Source: PVC group bacterium
Lineage (GTDB): Bacteria > Verrucomicrobiota > Kiritimatiellia > CAIKKV01 > CAITUY01
Direction: 5' to 3'
DNA: 44,921 nucleotides
Assembly (NCBI GenBank): GCA_945890715.1
Contig: CAMDCX010000013.1
Coordinates: 1 to 44,921 of the forward strand
The notes under the pieces are model-generated. The model did no database searches and was not told the DNA's origin. It was given only the letters and a program-made list of their open reading frames with translations. Position 1 is the first letter of the stretch. Every line of letters begins with the position of its first letter. A program made the translations under genes and the position numbers. Below, in pieces: positions 7,681 through 29,462 of the stretch.

Positions 7681-9105
7681 ATGAACCCAAAACCGGAACT
7701 GACGCCTGATCTTGACTCCATTCAGACAGAGCTCGCCCGGCTGGTTGTCCGTGACATGAAGATCCCCCTTGCCGGCTTGGCGAATCTTCTGGAGATGGCG
7801 GACCGGTCTTCTGCGAAGCACTTCAAGACCGAGGCCTCGCAATATGTGAACGATGCCTTGGGCGCCACAGAAACCCTCGAGGAATTGGTGGAGTTTTTAC
7901 TGGGCGTGCGCACCATGATGGCCGGGGGGGGGAGGTCCGACAAGCATGCCTGCGATCTGTTCAGCCTGGCTCGAACCATTTCCGATGGCCTCTCGCAAGC
8001 GGCTCAGGCTGGAGGAGGTGCCATGATAGTCACGGGAGAGCCGGTCACCATATTCTGCGATATCGGTCCGATGTCCCGGGTGATCCGTCATTTGATCCGG
8101 CTCGCCCTCAAGGCAGGAGGCATGGGGGGGGTGGCAACCATCCAGACGGGAGCGTGCAAGGGTAAGGCCTGTTTGTCGGTTGAATGCACCCCGGCTCCTG
8201 GAAAAATCGACGGGGAAGCCGAGGGGCTTGGCTTGACCTATTGCCGTCTCGTGTTGGAGTCCCATGGCGGGTCATTAAGCATCGAGTCAGAGCCGGGGAA
8301 AGCTTGTCGCTGGAACTGTCTTATGCCTGTGGCGAAGGGCATGATGGCGGAGATTGTGACAAGATCCGAGGCATCGGCCCTGGAGCCGTCCCGTCGCTAT
8401 CTCGGAGGCGGACATGACGCGGAAGAGAGCCCGGTGAGCGTGAAATCGCGTTCGATTGTCAGTCGGGGAACCCGTCACCAATTTGGCGTGGCGGTGGCCC
8501 TGATGTCCGCTATTCCGCTTCTGGCATTCTCCTATCTTCTCGGGGATGCCATGTCCTCCCGTTCTTTCGATATTGAAACCTTATATATGATGTTGCCCTC
8601 GGTTGTGGCGCTGATCTCCCTGGGTGTGGTTTTGCTGGCCCGGCATACGCTTGAAGTGGCCGCGCTCCGGAGCACAGTGGAGCGACTCTCCAAAGGGGAG
8701 TTGCCCCAGGTGGATCTCAAGGAGTTGAGCGAGGATTTTTCAGCCATTCAGCGGTGCCTGGGGTCAGTTATGAAGCAGACGGACGAGAAGGTGAGACTCA
8801 TTGAGGCTCAGTCGAAAGCGCTGGTTCAGGCCGAGCAACAGCGGGTGATGGCGGAGACGGTCGGAGCCGCCTGTCATCATTTGGGACAGCCGGCGACCGT
8901 GATTCGGGTTTATCTTGATCTGATGAAAAAGGTCGAGGCGTCGCCGGAGATGAAGGCGATGATCCAGGAATGCCAATCGGCTGTCGAGGAGGTGGCGGGG
9001 GTTCTGCAACGCCTCCAGGGAGTGGGTCAATACCAGACGGAGCCTTATCTGGGGCCTGACGTGCGGGGGAAGTCCCGTGCAGATGAACGGATTTTAAAGA
9101 TCTAG
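7681..9105 (+). CDS. Histidine-kinase-like membrane protein with reversed domain order
   Basis: A 474-residue protein. The N-terminal third resembles a kinase core: a DHp-like helix in which the phospho-accepting His is replaced by Arg24 (RDMKIPLAG where HELRTPL is usual), then an ATPase-like domain whose G2 box is kept (GLGLTYCRLVLESHGG, about 183-198) but whose N box is degenerate (SRVIRHLIRLALK, no Asn). Two hydrophobic segments follow (about 268-288 and 300-322), then a HAMP-like and coiled-coil region and a second DHp-like helix with a real candidate phospho-His, CHHLGQPATVI (His399). The protein ends there, without an ATPase domain. A GTG at 8434 could begin a shorter product. It follows the dehydrogenase by 21 bases and ends one base before a convergent gene. 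Confidence 0.7.
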   Translation: MNPKPELTPDLDSIQTELARLVVRDMKIPLAGLANLLEMADRSSAKHFKTEASQYVNDALGATETLEELVEFLLGVRTMMAGGGRSDKHACDLFSLARTISDGLSQAAQAGGGAMIVTGEPVTIFCDIGPMSRVIRHLIRLALKAGGMGGVATIQTGACKGKACLSVECTPAPGKIDGEAEGLGLTYCRLVLESHGGSLSIESEPGKACRWNCLMPVAKGMMAEIVTRSEASALEPSRRYLGGGHDAEESPVSVKSRSIVSRGTRHQFGVAVALMSAIPLLAFSYLLGDAMSSRSFDIETLYMMLPSVVALISLGVVLLARHTLEVAALRSTVERLSKGELPQVDLKELSEDFSAIQRCLGSVMKQTDEKVRLIEAQSKALVQAEQQRVMAETVGAACHHLGQPATVIRVYLDLMKKVEASPEMKAMIQECQSAVEEVAGVLQRLQGVGQYQTEPYLGPDVRGKSRADERILKI

Positions 9106-9659: not shown

Positions 9660-10700
9660 TTACCCCTGCTGTTTTTGTGTGTCGTGGCCTTCGCCGGAAA
9701 TGGTTTTGCGCATATCCGTATCAGCCTGGATGTTCTGCATGCGATAGAAGTCCATGACGCCTAGGTTTCCTTTTCGGAAGGCCTCGGCCATTGCCCGGGG
9801 AACCTCAGCCTGAGCCTCGACCACACGGGCCTGCATTTCTTGGACAAGGGCGCGCATTTCCTGCTCCCGTGCCACCGCCATGGCGCGACGACCTTCGGCT
9901 TCCGCCTGCCGCAGTTTCTTGTCGGCCTCGGCGCGTTCGGTTTCCAGCATGGCGCCCACGTTGGCCACATCCTTGGCACCGGTTCCGGCAACGCTGATGT
10001 CGGCGATATCAATGGAGACGATTTCAAAAGCCGTCTGGGAGTCCAGTCCGCTTGCCAGCACCCGGCGGCTGATGGCGTCGGGATTTTCCAGGACGTGCTT
10101 GTAGGAGGGGGATGACCCGATGGCGCTCACAATGCCCTGGCCGACGCGGGCGATGATGGTGTCTTCCCCGGCGCCGCCGACGAGTTGTTCGAGGTTGGTG
10201 CGAACCGTCACGCGCGCCTTGACGAGCATGCGAATCCCGTCCTTGGCCACGGCGTCCAGCATGGTCACCTGGCTCTTCTGGGGATCGGGGCAGTCAATGA
10301 CCTTCGGGATAACACTGGTGCGGACAGCCTCCTGCACATCGCGTCCGGCCAGATTGATGGCCGCCGCTTGCTGGAAGGTGAGCGCAATGCTGGCCTTGTC
10401 AGCGGCGATCAATCCGTTGACCACATTGATCACATCACCGCCTGCAAGGAAGTGGGCTTCCAGTGGGTCGGTATCCAGATTTAAGCCGGCCTTGATCAGT
10501 CGAATGCGGGCATCCACGATCAGCAGCGGCGGAACATGGCGCAGCTTCATGCCCACAAGGGACAGGATCGGCACCCGGGCGCCGGACATCAGTGCCCGCA
10601 CCCAAACCTTGATGAAATAGAAAAACACACCCAGGATGATGAAGGCGATAATCGCCGAGAGAATGAACAAAACCCCAACAATATTATTCACGACCCACAT
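9660..10700 (-). CDS. floA: Flotillin-like protein FloA
   Basis: FloA is an SPFH-family scaffold protein that forms foci in the membrane and organises lipid-microdomain proteins. The 346 residues have a hydrophobic N-terminal hairpin (about 5-32), the SPFH domain (about 35-220, with [23 protein letters not shown] in part and the CPDPQ segment typical of FloA/YqfA), then a long Ala/Glu-rich coiled coil (about 225-315, [19 protein letters not shown]). AAAAGGAG precedes the ATG by six bases. Neighbouring NfeD genes are the usual companions of FloA. Length agrees with Bacillus FloA (about 330). Confidence 0.94.
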
Positions 10701-10752
10701 ATTCGCTCCTTTTATTGACTCGACAGTTTACAGCTTGCATTACACATTTTTT

Positions 10753-11982
10753 CTACACCGCTCCCGGCGGAAAATTTCCCGGCAAAGGCGGCGGTTTGGT
10801 CGCCGGATCCTGGGGATAGGACACCATGACGGGTATCCGGCGATCCAGAATGGCTCCAACCAGGGCACCCATTCCCGCCAGCGTCATGATAAACCAGAAC
10901 ACAATGCCGAACGGAAACGGAAGGCTACTGGCGGCGTACAGTATCAACAACCCCAATGCCATGACAGGAAAAAGAAGATGGGGAGGGATCGGTGTTTTGC
11001 GGCGTAGTAACAGGTGTCCCACAAAGAGGCCGGTAATGATTTTGCTGACATACATCAGGAGGGTATAAGCCAGAATCAGCATGATGCTCAGGGGAATTCC
11101 GACCAGGGTGAACAGAAGGAAAAACGCCATCATGGGGACGAGGGCAAAGGTGACGAAACCAAAGAGGAGGCAGCGCCAGACGGATTCGGAGAGCTTGTGA
11201 ACGCTGAGGGCGACAACTCCGGGCATGAGCGAGACGAAGACCAGTCCCACTAGGATGGCCCCTGAAAGAAGGGCCAGTTGCACTATCAGGGAGGCGGTGG
11301 TTATGGGCGCCGCGGCCTCTGGCTCAAGGATTTCCTGCCGGATCATTTTTCCACCCAGCGCGACGCGGGAGTCCAGAACCAGATCCCGATCCATCCGGTA
11401 CACCAGATTGCCGGCAATTCGGGTTCCCGGCGTGACGGTGATATCGCTGGCGGTGACGTTCAGGTTCCCGTTGAACCGGCCAGCGAGTGTGACTTTTGTG
11501 CCAAGAATACGGGAATTTCCGGAAATGGTTCCGCTCACAATGATATCCTGGCCGACCAGAAAGAGATCGCCCCCCACGGTGGTATTGGTGCCCAGCACCA
11601 GAGTGGGGGCAAAGGCCATGAGGTTCCGGCCAATAGAGCCGTTGACGGTGCAGGATTTCAGGGCCGCCAGCCGCGCATGGTTCGACGTGACCCCAGTCAT
11701 ATCTACGCTTTCCCCGGCCGCCCAGAGATCGGATCGGAAGGTGCCCGGAAGCCGCACAGTGGCAGGATTGGTCGAGGTTGTCTGGTTAACGCTGTCGGCG
11801 AGCAGGAAACAATCGTCTTCGGCCAGTCCGGAAAAGGTTACGGTACGCCCTTGCGCCCAGAGTTCATTGGTGGTCGTCTGGTTTTCGGCAACGAGGACGT
11901 TTTCGACCGATTGAAAATCAATAGCCGTGCAGGTGGATGCCAGCAGGATGAGGGAGAGAATGGCCGCGGCTCTGAAACTCAT
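10753..11982 (-). CDS. Bactofilin-like beta-helical envelope protein with C-terminal membrane domain
   Basis: A 409-residue protein. Residues 1-20 form a signal peptide. Residues about 25-215 are repetitive short strands with Gly/Asn/Thr turns (for example VNGSIGRNLMAFA, TVGGDLFLVGQDI, GRFNGNLNVTASDI), the pattern of polymer-forming bactofilin-type (DUF583) beta-helices. From about 228 there are four to five membrane segments with short loops, including VGLVFVSLMPGVVALSVHKL and a final LPFPFGIVFWFIMTL. The C-terminus is Pro-rich. The helix would therefore be exported and membrane-anchored, unlike cytoplasmic bactofilins. Its ATGA start overlaps the short NfeD gene, so a role in the same membrane module is likely. 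Function unknown. Confidence 0.72.
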   Translation of the reverse strand: MSFRAAAILSLILLASTCTAIDFQSVENVLVAENQTTTNELWAQGRTVTFSGLAEDDCFLLADSVNQTTSTNPATVRLPGTFRSDLWAAGESVDMTGVTSNHARLAALKSCTVNGSIGRNLMAFAPTLVLGTNTTVGGDLFLVGQDIIVSGTISGNSRILGTKVTLAGRFNGNLNVTASDITVTPGTRIAGNLVYRMDRDLVLDSRVALGGKMIRQEILEPEAAAPITTASLIVQLALLSGAILVGLVFVSLMPGVVALSVHKLSESVWRCLLFGFVTFALVPMMAFFLLFTLVGIPLSIMLILAYTLLMYVSKIITGLFVGHLLLRRKTPIPPHLLFPVMALGLLILYAASSLPFPFGIVFWFIMTLAGMGALVGAILDRRIPVMVSYPQDPATKPPPLPGNFPPGAV

Positions 11983-12452
11983 GCGTTACCCTTCCGGACG
12001 ACAATGCGGTTTCCCTCGACTTTGACAATCGTCACCGGCTGATCCGGCTCAATGATTCCGCTTTCGGCGACCACATCCAGCCGCTGGCCGTCAATCAGGG
12101 CGAATCCGGCCGGCCTGAGTTGGGATACGGCGGTTCCGGATCGACCCATGAGCGCCTGCTTGGAGTCCGAGGACTTGAAAGACTTTCCATCCATATTGAG
12201 GGTCATTTTCTGGCCGATTCCGGAGCGTGGAAATAACTTGATCCAGGCTGCGACGGTGATGACCATCAGGATGAGCACTCCGAACAGGGTGTAAAAGCCG
12301 CAGGCATTGCTGATTCCGAACGCCACGATGACGGCGGCGAACAGGGCTATGCCTCCGAGGGTTCCCAGAACGGCGCCCGGCACAAAAATTTCAGCCCCGA
12401 TCAACAGCGTGCCGGCGGCGAGAAGAACGATCAGCAGGGTAGTAGTGTCCAT
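11979..12452 (-). CDS. Short NfeD protein (NfeD1b type)
   Basis: A 157-residue protein with membrane helices at about 5-22, 30-47 and 52-70, followed by an OB-fold domain (about 90-155: LMGRSGTAVSQLRPAGFALIDGQRL in part and VKVEGNRIVVR). This is the short NfeD type that lacks the protease domain and is commonly encoded next to flotillins, where it supports microdomain assembly. It begins four bases after the long NfeD gene. The OB-fold ends of the two proteins are clearly related (PAG ... GNRIVV), suggesting an old duplication. Confidence 0.88.
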   Translation of the reverse strand: MDTTTLLIVLLAAGTLLIGAEIFVPGAVLGTLGGIALFAAVIVAFGISNACGFYTLFGVLILMVITVAAWIKLFPRSGIGQKMTLNMDGKSFKSSDSKQALMGRSGTAVSQLRPAGFALIDGQRLDVVAESGIIEPDQPVTIVKVEGNRIVVRKGNA

Positions 12453-12456
12453 AAAC

Positions 12457-13857
12457 TTAAGCTTTCTCGATACGGGTCACAATTATACGGTTCCCGCGGG
12501 CTTCGGCAATCACGATCGCTTCACCGGCTTCATAAAAATCACCCCGGGTGACCACATTCAGGCGCAGGGTGCCGAATCGTGCGGCTCCTGCGGGATTCAA
12601 ACGGGTTTCCGTGATTCCCTGACGTCCGACCAGTGAAGAGGTATCAGAAGCAGCCGTGAATCCGTCGGTACGAGAAGTGGCACTATCCAGTATCAGCTTC
12701 CTGAACAGCCGTGTTTGGGGGAGAAGCCCCGCCACCAGCGCAAAGCCCACGGCGGAAAGGAGCAGGGATTTTGAAAATTCGATGACGGAAAACGAAAGTT
12801 GGGGCAGGGAGGGATACCACGGATCTCCGGGATAGTGCTGGATCATGGCCATCAGGATCGACACGATGATGAGGGTGATTCCGATAATGCCGGGGAGCAG
12901 GATTCCCGGGAAGAGGAACAGTTCAACCAGGATCAGGAGGATTCCCAGGGCAAACAGAGTTATTTCTTCCAGTCCCGAAAGCCCCGCGATGTGGGAGCCC
13001 CAGAACCAGATGGCCAGGAGGAGTGCCCCCAGAATGCCCGGCAATCCGAATCCGGGGGTCTTGAACTCGATGTAAATTCCCAGCAGACCCAGTGCGAGAA
13101 TAATGATGGAAAAGGACTCGATGAACCGCGCGATTTCCTCGGCGCTGGTGACGGTGAGTTCAATCTGCTCGCAGTTCTCCTTGCCAATCTTTTTCAAGAG
13201 GGCGTCCAAATTCTCCACGGTTCCATCCGAGAGCAGGTTTTTTTTCAGCGGGCCGACCGGGCGTTCGGCGTCCTTGTTGGTCAGGGTCAGGAGCTGCCCT
13301 TTTTTGGAGATCACCTCATCGCCGATCTTGTATTCGGAATCGCGCCGAACCATGGCCTCGGCGAGTTTCGGGTCGTGGCCGCGGTGCTGGGCGGCGGCCC
13401 GGATCATGGCGGCAACATAGGAGACTGATTTTTCCTCAACGGATTCGGGCATGGGCTGAACCTCGCCAGTCAGACCCAGCATGATGGGCATGGCGTCGCC
13501 GATCTTGCTGCCGGGGGTCATGTAAATGTGGTCGGTGGCCATGGCGATGATGGCACCGGCCGAGATGGCGTTGGGGTTGACCAGCGTGTAGGAGGGAACC
13601 TTGAGACCCCTCAGCAGGGTGAGAATTTCCTCGGCGGAATCAACCCGTCCCCCGGGGGTGTCCATATCAAAGATGATGGCCTCAGCTCCCTCGTTTTCGG
13701 CCTCGATGAGGCCCCGGCGGATCACATACACCAGGGCGGTGTCAATGACATCGTGGATCGGGATGATGTACACCTTGCCGGGAACGGCATTCGTCGCAGC
13801 CCCGGCGGGCAAGGACAGAAGAGATAGTAATAGCGCCAGAAAACGGATGAATTTCAT
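12457..13857 (-). CDS. Long NfeD membrane serine protease (NfeD1a / ClpP class)
   Basis: A 466-residue protein in three parts. After a signal peptide (1-20) comes a ClpP-type Ser-Lys protease domain (about 28-220): FDMDTPGGRVDSA is the oxyanion-strand motif, the nucleophile is Ser99 in NPNAISAGAIIAMA, and Lys143 (EEKSVSYVAAMIR) fits the catalytic Lys. Next is a membrane domain with four to five helices (about 235-400), then the OB-fold (about 405-465, VGRQGITETRLNPAG). In the archaeal relative this protease cuts the C-terminus of a stomatin/flotillin partner, so FloA, encoded three genes on, is the likely partner (inference). ATGA overlap with the LolA-like gene upstream. Confidence 0.9.
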   Translation of the reverse strand: MKFIRFLALLLSLLSLPAGAATNAVPGKVYIIPIHDVIDTALVYVIRRGLIEAENEGAEAIIFDMDTPGGRVDSAEEILTLLRGLKVPSYTLVNPNAISAGAIIAMATDHIYMTPGSKIGDAMPIMLGLTGEVQPMPESVEEKSVSYVAAMIRAAAQHRGHDPKLAEAMVRRDSEYKIGDEVISKKGQLLTLTNKDAERPVGPLKKNLLSDGTVENLDALLKKIGKENCEQIELTVTSAEEIARFIESFSIIILALGLLGIYIEFKTPGFGLPGILGALLLAIWFWGSHIAGLSGLEEITLFALGILLILVELFLFPGILLPGIIGITLIIVSILMAMIQHYPGDPWYPSLPQLSFSVIEFSKSLLLSAVGFALVAGLLPQTRLFRKLILDSATSRTDGFTAASDTSSLVGRQGITETRLNPAGAARFGTLRLNVVTRGDFYEAGEAIVIAEARGNRIIVTRIEKA

Positions 13858-27516: not shown

Positions 27517-28071
27517 TTGAACCGTAATCAATCAATTTCCGGATCCCGTTCCGGGCAGGGATTAATTGAATCCTGTATTGTGGTCGCCTTGGTTTGCCTG
27601 ATTTTTTTTAGTGTTTTCCAGCTTTCGCAACTATTTGCCGCTCAGGAAGTTCTGGACTATGCCGCCGGGCGGGGTGCGCGTGCCCGGACGGTGGGATTCA
27701 ATCATTTCATGGTTGAAAAAACCATTCGGGTCGGGGCCATACCCAATGCCGGCCGACTCGTCAATCCCGTTCATTCCGGTGGGCCTTCCGGCCAGCATGC
27801 GATTGAGTCGGCGCGAATTCCGCTTTATCTCGGGGGTGAGAACGAAGGCCGGTTAAGGGCGATTCTGGATTATGATGCCTGGGAGACGATCATTTTTGGA
27901 GCCTCTTCCTCACTGGGTGACGGAACGTTGCGACAGAGCATTGAACAGAAAGTCTCTCTTACGAATAATCCCTTTCATCGCGCCTTTTATGATTCTGATT
28001 CCATTACGCTGAACGGGGAATGTACTCTGGACGAGCATTACACTCTTTATCTGGATGAGGCGGGATGGTGA
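27517..28071 (+). CDS. TadE-like pseudopilin
   Basis: A 184-residue protein with N-terminal SGQGLIESCIVVALVCLIFF, a type IVb prepilin leader with Glu at +5 followed by a hydrophobic helix; TadE proteins have this form. The rest is an exported domain with no cysteine pair and no recognised family. The probable start is TTG at 27517 since upstream ATGs are out of frame. Its last seven bases overlap the next gene. A minor pilin or pseudopilin role in the Tad machine is inferred from leader and context. Confidence 0.72.
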   Translation: MNRNQSISGSRSGQGLIESCIVVALVCLIFFSVFQLSQLFAAQEVLDYAAGRGARARTVGFNHFMVEKTIRVGAIPNAGRLVNPVHSGGPSGQHAIESARIPLYLGGENEGRLRAILDYDAWETIIFGASSSLGDGTLRQSIEQKVSLTNNPFHRAFYDSDSITLNGECTLDEHYTLYLDEAGW

Positions 28072-29462
28072 ACCGGATGTCAAATCGTTCAGGGCAGGCC
28101 CTGATTTTTATCATCATGATTCTGGTGATCCTGGCGTTTGTGGCGCTGTGGAATTTTGATCTTCATAAAATCATCTATGTCAAATCGTTGAGTCAGAATG
28201 CGGGTGATTCGGCTGCACTGGCGGGGGCGCGATGGCAGGCGACTTCACTGAATCTCATAGGCGATCTGAATGTGATGCAGGCGGTGGCGTTGACCCGGGG
28301 TGACACCAATGAGGCGGCGGCCATCAGTGAATTGCAGGCCCGGTTGTGTTATGTCGGCCCCATGATCGGCCTCGAGGCCGCCCAGCAGGCTGGAAAGAAT
28401 AATGGGCTTTTCAACAATGACCGGTTTACCGCCCGTCTGATGAAGCATGCCGATACGGTGCTAACGGATTACAGGGCGACGGGACCCGATGGGCGAATGT
28501 TGTTCCAGGAGCCCTTCCCGGGGTGCTGGAACGAGTATGCCCAAATGATTCAGGCGGTTGCCGCGAACGGGGTGGCGGTGGGGCCAGACAATGCCCGGTA
28601 CTATTCCGATTATTCCGGAGGAAGTTTGCTGCTGATTCCTGATTTCTATGACGCCGTGGCAGGAACCGATTGGTGTTGGTTCTACCACCATGCCTATGAT
28701 TTTCTAAAAACATACATCGATTACCAGTCCTGGCCGCCCCTGCCCGAAATCATTCCGACGCCGGAGCCCTTGAATTGCGAGTATTTCGGACTTGGTCTCA
28801 GGCGGCTGGATCTGATTGGGGATGCCCGCGCCCTTCCGGCGATGGACTCTGTGAGAGTGGAGCGCGGCCTTTCACCGGATCCCCTCAGTCCCTCCCTGGG
28901 CTCCATGATGTCAGCCTGGTATTGTTATGATGAGTCGATCTGGGGCCCCTGGGTTTCAATATCACCGGATGGCGAAAATAATTTCCCCGCCACGGGGCCG
29001 GTTAAATCCTGGTATGACTACGCCGGAGGCGATGCCGTTACCCGGGTTATGGCCACATCGCCCCGTCTGTCTCCCGGGGCGGGAACCAGCAAGATTACCT
29101 GGACTGCAGCCGCCAAACCGTTTGGCTATCTGGAGGGTGGGGGCAAGCAGATTAAACCCAACGAATATGGGTTGGTTCTTCCGGCGTTCCGGGAAGTCAG
29201 GCTTATTCCCACGGATGCCTCCTCGGCCCCTGCGGGCGGCTCGTTCAATTTGGATTGGCGGGATCATATTGAGGGACATCTGGATGATTATCTGGCCACG
29301 GGAACGACCGTTGCGGGGTGTTATTATTGTATGGCGCTACTGGTTTGGGGAAACCCGGTCTTCCGGCAGACGGGCATTGACTGGCTTGAGGACAACAAGG
29401 GGTCCTGTCAGACCTACGGTGGCCCGGGGCGGCATGGTGGCGGATCGCGGCGGGGGCATTGA
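28065..29462 (+). CDS. TadG-like pilus protein
   Basis: A 465-residue protein. RSGQALIFIIMILVILAFVAL near the start is a Tad-type leader helix, but position +5 is Phe, not Glu, so it may be uncleaved, as in TadG-like proteins (PF13400). QNAGDSAALAGARWQATSLN after the helix is the typical D-S-A-A-L-A-G-A run of TadG N-domains. The large exported part contains several Cys and is rich in Trp and Tyr; no von Willebrand domain is clear. The start ATG overlaps the preceding gene. Function: probably a minor or structural pseudopilin. Confidence 0.75.
   Translation: MVNRMSNRSGQALIFIIMILVILAFVALWNFDLHKIIYVKSLSQNAGDSAALAGARWQATSLNLIGDLNVMQAVALTRGDTNEAAAISELQARLCYVGPMIGLEAAQQAGKNNGLFNNDRFTARLMKHADTVLTDYRATGPDGRMLFQEPFPGCWNEYAQMIQAVAANGVAVGPDNARYYSDYSGGSLLLIPDFYDAVAGTDWCWFYHHAYDFLKTYIDYQSWPPLPEIIPTPEPLNCEYFGLGLRRLDLIGDARALPAMDSVRVERGLSPDPLSPSLGSMMSAWYCYDESIWGPWVSISPDGENNFPATGPVKSWYDYAGGDAVTRVMATSPRLSPGAGTSKITWTAAAKPFGYLEGGGKQIKPNEYGLVLPAFREVRLIPTDASSAPAGGSFNLDWRDHIEGHLDDYLATGTTVAGCYYCMALLVWGNPVFRQTGIDWLEDNKGSCQTYGGPGRHGGGSRRGH

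Follow-up and report, generated by a model that had tools for sequence, protein, structure and literature searches.

DivL has a Tyr in place of the phospho-acceptor His, RetS heterodimerizes with GacS, and Spo0B and ChpT are both soluble proteins, of which Spo0B also keeps a degenerate C-terminal ATPase-like domain. RcsD is a membrane protein that combines an inactive histidine kinase-like ATPase region with a His phosphotransfer module (PMC7418988), and PhyT/PhyP, from the general stress response of Sphingomonas, have been shown to act as phosphotransferases (PMC5898713). Spo0B and ChpT descend from kinases and are dimeric histidine phosphotransferases of the DHp type (PMC3433190; PMC5898713); in DivL, a kinase core has come to serve as an input sensor for a response regulator (PMC4211667).

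The window analyzed here, the whole stretch of 44,921 nucleotides of contig CAMDCX010000013.1 from a PVC group bacterium of the Kiritimatiellia (GCA_945890715.1), encodes a protein that can be set against each of these (Table 1). From N- to C-terminus it comprises a degenerate HisKA domain, a degenerate HATPase_c domain, a linker, a membrane hairpin, a HAMP-like region and a DHp with His399, after which the chain stops. A preliminary description made from the letters alone had read the C-terminal part in this way; hairpin, HAMP-like region, terminal DHp and chain end were all borne out by sequence and model, and its numbering of His399 is exact. The search it proposed for genes of the same order found orthologs in seven other genomes at 48–84% identity and, since the order is kept in eight genomes, it is not due to chance.

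Like RcsD, the fusion protein joins an inactive kinase-like ATPase and a putative phosphotransfer module in one membrane chain, but RcsD has a large periplasmic region and ends in a monomeric HPt, whereas the fusion protein has a short loop, ends in a DHp-like module (Pfam found no Hpt domain in it) and carries its dead kinase before the membrane segment. Like PhyT/PhyP, with their phosphorylatable His, it has a membrane-anchored DHp with a predicted acceptor His and no working ATPase; PhyT/PhyP, however, have a DHp of the HWE/HisKA_2 type (HRxxN) and a degenerate ATPase of their own, whereas the DHp of the fusion protein is HisKA-like (HHxxQ) with nothing after it. The modeled DHp-type helical hairpin, the conserved His and the lack of a usable ATPase recall Spo0B, ChpT and PhyT together, but ChpT keeps a degenerate C-terminal ATPase-like domain, of which the family of C-terminal halves described below has none, and members of that family are mostly linked to the membrane or to PAS or REC domains, unlike Spo0B and ChpT. 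As proposed for the fusion protein, DivL uses a kinase core as an input, and it is the best fold match of the model in the PDB; the acceptor His is replaced by Tyr in DivL and by Arg24 in the fusion protein, and DivL has its kinase core at the C-terminus and no second DHp. RetS–GacS offers a parallel for the proposed pseudokinase-like control of another DHp, by direct contact, but between two proteins, where here pseudokinase and DHp lie in one chain. Set beside a HisKA sensor kinase, in which a DHp with its acceptor His precedes HATPase_c, the fusion protein has Arg24 and no C-terminal ATPase, and it is without the N-box Asn, the ATP lid and an acidic residue after the His. Our best reading is that it would work like RcsD, PhyT, Spo0B and ChpT while belonging to the same family as none of them.

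Table 1. Features of the fusion gene and its product, with positions in the window.
Feature	Position	Strand	Basis
Whole gene, pseudo-histidine kinase plus TM–HAMP-like–DHp module	7681..9105	+	ORF, 474 aa plus stop
Pseudo-DHp, HisKA-like, without acceptor His, residues 10-80	7708..7920	+	Pfam HisKA, dN/dS
Arg24 at the phospho-acceptor His position	7750..7752	+	ortholog alignment, intact relatives
Pseudo-ATPase, Bergerat-like fold, residues 89-218	7945..8334	+	Pfam, AlphaFold2, PDB match
N-box remnant, His137 and Leu141 replacing two Asn	8089..8103	+	alignment with intact REC-histidine kinase
G2-box remnant GLGL, residues 182-185	8224..8235	+	sequence
Linker	8347..8451	+	low model confidence, near-neutral dN/dS
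First membrane helix, about residues 268-289	8482..8547	+	sequence; model helix 259-292
Second membrane helix, about residues 301-320	8581..8640	+	sequence; model helix 298-337
HAMP-like region, residues 323-372	8647..8796	+	LR...G..P...D..AI pattern, conserved across the C-half family
C-terminal DHp, residues 378-449, no ATPase after it	8812..9027	+	Pfam, family of 98 ORFs, model
His399, predicted phospho-acceptor	8875..8877	+	family conservation
His400, +1 place (Glu/Asp in autokinases)	8878..8880	+	family conservation
Gln403, +4 place, predicted phosphatase/phosphotransfer residue	8887..8889	+	invariant in alignments A6 and A7
Conserved C-terminal tail YxTEPYL...RILKI	9028..9102	+	Tyr456 invariant; two short strands in model

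A dead N-terminal DHp with Arg for His, and an N box without its Asn, had been proposed from the outset, and both stand. The best stretch for Pfam HisKA is residues 16–73 (E 4.7e-8, above cutoff), the acceptor motif reads VRDM against VHDL in intact relatives, and Arg24 is invariant in all eight orthologs aligned. HATPase_c matches residues 132–211 (E 3.2e-5) with 24.8 bits, just below the cutoff of 26.4, and AlphaFold2 gives a confident CA-like fold at residues 90–222 (pLDDT mostly 85–97). With His137 and Leu141 in the fusion protein, the N-box Asn is absent at both positions from all eight orthologs. Compared with an intact relative, the protein is about 19 residues shorter from the G1 strand to the G2 box and thus has no ATP lid, a region absent in most orthologs; the G2 box is partly lost in L016 and L019, and broken in L016. 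Searches with NCBIfam returned partial kinase matches only, all below cutoffs. The full-length AlphaFold2 model, from 27 homologs, is moderate (pLDDT 71.5, pTM 0.42), with pLDDT <50 at residues 223–260, and its best PDB matches are the DivL pseudokinase (4q20) and HK853.

The two halves come from different sources. In orthologs L017–L020, REC, DHp and CA are colinear, and L019, the REC-bearing ortholog from genome G007, is 37% identical over 372 residues (E 9e-69) to an intact REC-histidine kinase of another Kiritimatiellia genome, which has VHDL and an Asn-Asn N box; the bacterium's own genome also encodes an intact REC-histidine kinase (L003). Judged by these alignments, the N-terminal half appears to be a decayed REC-histidine kinase. 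The C-terminal half has a counterpart in a stand-alone protein of 236 residues in the same genome (L013, G000:C23, match 27831-28499), which aligns to residues 252–473 and consists of hairpin, HAMP-like region, DHp and chain end, with no ATPase; the N-terminal DHp was not picked up by a model of the C-terminal DHp at E 1e-3. Given these different sources, the gene is a fusion of a REC-histidine kinase with a TM-DHp protein and not a permutation, which leaves the circular rearrangement suggested in the preliminary description unsupported, while the pseudokinase fused to a built-in phosphotransfer partner that it offered instead holds as an architecture. Its further expectation, that homologs split near residue 252 into two genes of normal architecture would mean a local fusion, proved half right: the split exists, but the stand-alone C-terminal half, lacking an ATPase, is not a normal architecture, and the fusion is not local, as it is present in single copy in eight of the nine genomes examined of the GTDB family, in three of four genera. 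This distribution rules out a local fusion or an assembly error; the fusion is old.

Receiver and ATPase have decayed to different degrees among the orthologs, decay being confined to this end of the protein. The catalytic Asp and Lys of REC are both intact in G007, the Lys is lost in G008, and in G002 and G004 the Asp is changed to Asn and the Lys lost; REC is unrecognizable in G001 and wholly absent from the protein at 7681-9105 and its two nearest orthologs. The HATPase_c scores are 93.8 bits for the intact L003, 51.6 for L019, 24.8 for the protein at 7681-9105, 22.3 for L017 and 19.4 for L020. These are states of decay set side by side, and the sequence in which they arose is not proven. 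Within one bacterial family, a histidine kinase seems to have been turned step by step into a regulatory pseudokinase: one ortholog has the REC catalytic residues and an above-cutoff ATPase, others have dead receivers and weaker ATPases, and the 7681-9105 clade has no receiver.

Both halves are under purifying selection. Over four pairs, with dS saturated for the L017–L018 pair, dN/dS was 0.06–0.15 for the pseudo-DHp (0.10–0.15 in pairs from the 7681-9105 clade), 0.13–0.28 for the pseudo-CA, the fastest-evolving folded part, 0.40–0.87 for the linker, 0.07–0.13 for the hairpin plus HAMP-like region, and 0.04–0.11 for the terminal DHp (0.05–0.11 in pairs from the same clade); the row for L019 in alignment A2, which was out of frame, was left out of later work. 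The low values in its folded parts indicate that the dead N-terminal half is being kept and is not rotting.

Pfam HisKA recognizes the C-terminal DHp of the fusion protein alone only weakly (E 0.013). Modeled alone with AlphaFold2 (54 rows), the C-terminal half reached a pLDDT of 84.7, with the DHp helices mostly at 84–96. Among solved structures it came closest to DHp domains of kinases, those of GacS and ERS1 among them, albeit weakly (E 0.006 or worse). Given the hairpin topology, both halves of the protein are cytoplasmic. A true HAMP identity for the region after the hairpin was rejected: Pfam HAMP recognizes one of 97 family members, and the likeness is one of resemblance only.

Relatives of the C-terminal half were sought by scanning for the motif ACHH[LI]GQP over 84,980 bacterial and archaeal genomes (GTDB r220), which gave 91 relatives, of which 80 were kept; their records are labeled Kiritimatiellia or other PVC, or are MAGs without such a label, and the cultured Pontiella sulfatireligans is among them, with a TM-DHp gene (L093). 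Across the phylum, members were found in 41 of 289 genomes, all 41 in Kiritimatiellia. In the searches made, the family is apparently confined to this class, a limit that rests on the motif scan and the 289 genomes, so that diverged members elsewhere could be missed. It is apparently also undescribed so far, there being no description of it in the literature searched (open-license PMC papers on DHp-only, split and Kiritimatiellia kinases).

None of the 98 distinct family ORFs has an ATPase after the DHp; in 97 the chain ends 11–42 residues past it, and the remaining one (L088) carries a REC domain. HATPase_c was matched in only seven of the 97 members scanned, and lies N-terminally in the fused proteins looked at. 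Architectures include TM-DHp, REC-DHp, PAS-PAS-DHp (about 40 members), REC-TM-DHp, REC-HDGYP-TM-DHp, REC-pseudoHK-TM-DHp, pseudoHK-TM-DHp and TM-DHp-REC. What precedes the hairpin can be nothing, REC, REC-HDGYP, REC-pseudoHK or pseudoHK, and degenerate receivers are also present in L022, L026, L068 and L074; being exchangeable, and dead more than once, this part would be the input and the DHp the output. Together these proteins make up a group of ATPase-free DHps specific to the class.

Of the 98 ORFs, 97 retain the acceptor His, as do more distant members, and the exception is a REC-DHp paralog (L047:6507-7358) with the motif CRRLAEP. At +1 there is His in 96 ORFs, Lys in one and Arg in one, with Ala or Leu in distant members, and no acidic residue was found there in any of the 98 or in the more distant members. 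Gln at +4, Pro at +5 and the Tyr of the tail are near-invariant; conservation of the motif is partly built in, since the 80 GTDB loci were found by it, and the same residue conservation is seen in loci L014–L062, which were found by whole-protein similarity. The Gln at +4 may be mere inheritance from FixL/DctB-like ancestors (HELNQPL). Several histidine kinases depend critically on the acidic +1 residue for autophosphorylation (PMC5231405), but HisKA_2/HWE kinases work with Arg at this position (HRxxN; PMC5898713), and because of this the missing acid does not alone prove the loss of kinase activity. At +4, where HxxxT has its T and DxxQ its Q, stands the residue responsible for phosphatase activity in HisKA and HisKA_3; in HisKA this activity is carried by that residue and the His, NarX has Gln there, and the isolated DHp of HK853 has been reported to have kinase-side and phosphatase activity (PMC5727384). 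With His and Gln +4 kept and the acidic +1 residue absent, the family appears to have retained what dephosphorylation or relay needs and to have lost what a kinase needs.

We lean, at slightly better than even confidence, toward the fusion protein being a membrane-anchored DHp that dephosphorylates response regulators or relays phosphoryl groups on them, gated by pseudokinase input. Having no functional ATPase, it cannot start signaling; its working end would be the C-terminal DHp. A receiver domain carrying a phosphoryl group would meet His399 and Gln403 of the DHp dimer, which would act either as a phosphatase, hydrolyzing that group, or as a phosphotransferase, with His399 accepting it and handing it on; the analysis does not distinguish the two. 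Gating would come from the cytoplasmic pseudokinase, which on binding a response regulator, another kinase or possibly nucleotide would act on the DHp by way of the hairpin and HAMP-like coil. For the fusion protein we infer this chemistry, the gating and the partner; C-half modules in general probably remove or relay phosphate in signaling and do not start it. More tentatively, and a little short of even confidence, the family may represent a Kiritimatiellia-specific branch of two-component signaling in which transmitters never have an ATPase after the DHp and serve as dedicated response-regulator phosphatases or relays. Such a branch would have DHp-only outputs fused to PAS, REC, HD-GYP, hairpins or dead kinases, would include the common PAS-PAS-DHp proteins, some of them in a type IV pilus cluster near a PilR-like regulator, and would count the protein at 7681-9105 as the member that captured a whole REC-kinase as its input, which then decayed. 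As dedicated phosphatases or relays, the modules would offer a natural experiment on the residues that a DHp requires for phosphotransfer and dephosphorylation when selection for kinase function has ceased: His, Gln +4 and Pro +5 have been retained, the acidic residue at +1 has not.

It is unlikely, though worth weighing, that the protein is a decoy or scaffold whose DHp-like parts heterodimerize with active kinases, as RetS does with GacS, inhibiting or localizing them without phosphoryl chemistry at His399. A scaffold sequestering kinases was among the options of the preliminary description and stays a rival. Constraint on the pseudo-DHp is almost as strong as on the C-terminal DHp, the full model finds its closest solved structure in a pseudokinase, DivL, the RetS–GacS DHp complex turns up among the C-terminal half's weak matches, and histidine kinases with a homologous hairpin in relatives (L043, L044) could form mixed dimers; a decoy would, however, leave the near-invariant His and Gln +4 unexplained across members that differ in everything N-terminal. 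Less likely again is that His399 is phosphorylated in trans by the ATPase of an active kinase, so that the two would form a split kinase signaling to a response regulator. Genes for kinases with a hairpin and HAMP-like region of this kind stand beside REC-DHp genes (L044, L045, L046), so that mixed dimers are conceivable, but in HisKA kinases the His is activated by an acidic +1 residue, which every member lacks, and no separate ATPase gene adjoins the fusion gene. A weakly active or circularly arranged kinase, whose N-terminal ATPase reaches and phosphorylates His399, is very improbable: the CA-like model is confident and the membrane does not come between the two halves, both being cytoplasmic, but the N-box Asn is found in none of the eight orthologs, the lid is deleted in most and the G2 box broken in L016, the CA evolves fastest among the folded parts, and the hairpin separates the halves. 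An intact or conditionally active ATPase was rejected on the N box, the lid and the decay of the Pfam match. The dead catalytic residues might suggest a recently broken gene or assembly artifact without function, which can be practically dismissed given an open frame and the same order in eight genomes, with dN/dS well below 1 in all folded parts.

The surroundings of family members vary. Six of the 37 PAS-PAS-DHp loci examined (L100, L106, L115, L130, L132, L137) have an NtrC/PilR-type regulator within 5 kb; these genes are inside type IV pilus or pseudopilin gene clusters, and no PilS-like kinase was seen in the six stretches. REC-DHp proteins, which are like Spo0F and Spo0B in one chain, are encoded beside histidine kinase and REC-HDOD genes in L044, L045, L048, L055, L056 and L061, and that in L061 adjoins flagellar genes. 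REC-HD-GYP-TM-DHp proteins occur in two different families (L052 and L143), joining the membrane DHp module to an HD domain resembling those of c-di-GMP phosphodiesterases. Stand-alone TM-DHp genes directly adjoin a NarL-type response regulator in L053, L054 and L059, with a sensor kinase-like gene close by, and lie near a heavy-metal-efflux-like (RND) cluster in L013, of the bacterium's own genome, and L057 (G005), where no regulator gene was seen nearby. In L145 and L148 a short DHp-like ORF end (CHALGQP) has nothing else recognizable attached, and its frame, though open further upstream, looks non-coding there. The fusion gene itself has an ADH-type dehydrogenase and a FloA/NfeD cluster as neighbors, and no response regulator gene was found adjoining it, which counts against the reading favored here. 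The downstream stretch at 9660-13857 holds a FloA flotillin-like gene (Pfam), two NfeD-like genes and one for a polymer-forming-like membrane protein, the last two labels being assigned by eye; FloA also lies close to the fusion gene in G002, G003, G005 and, probably, G004.
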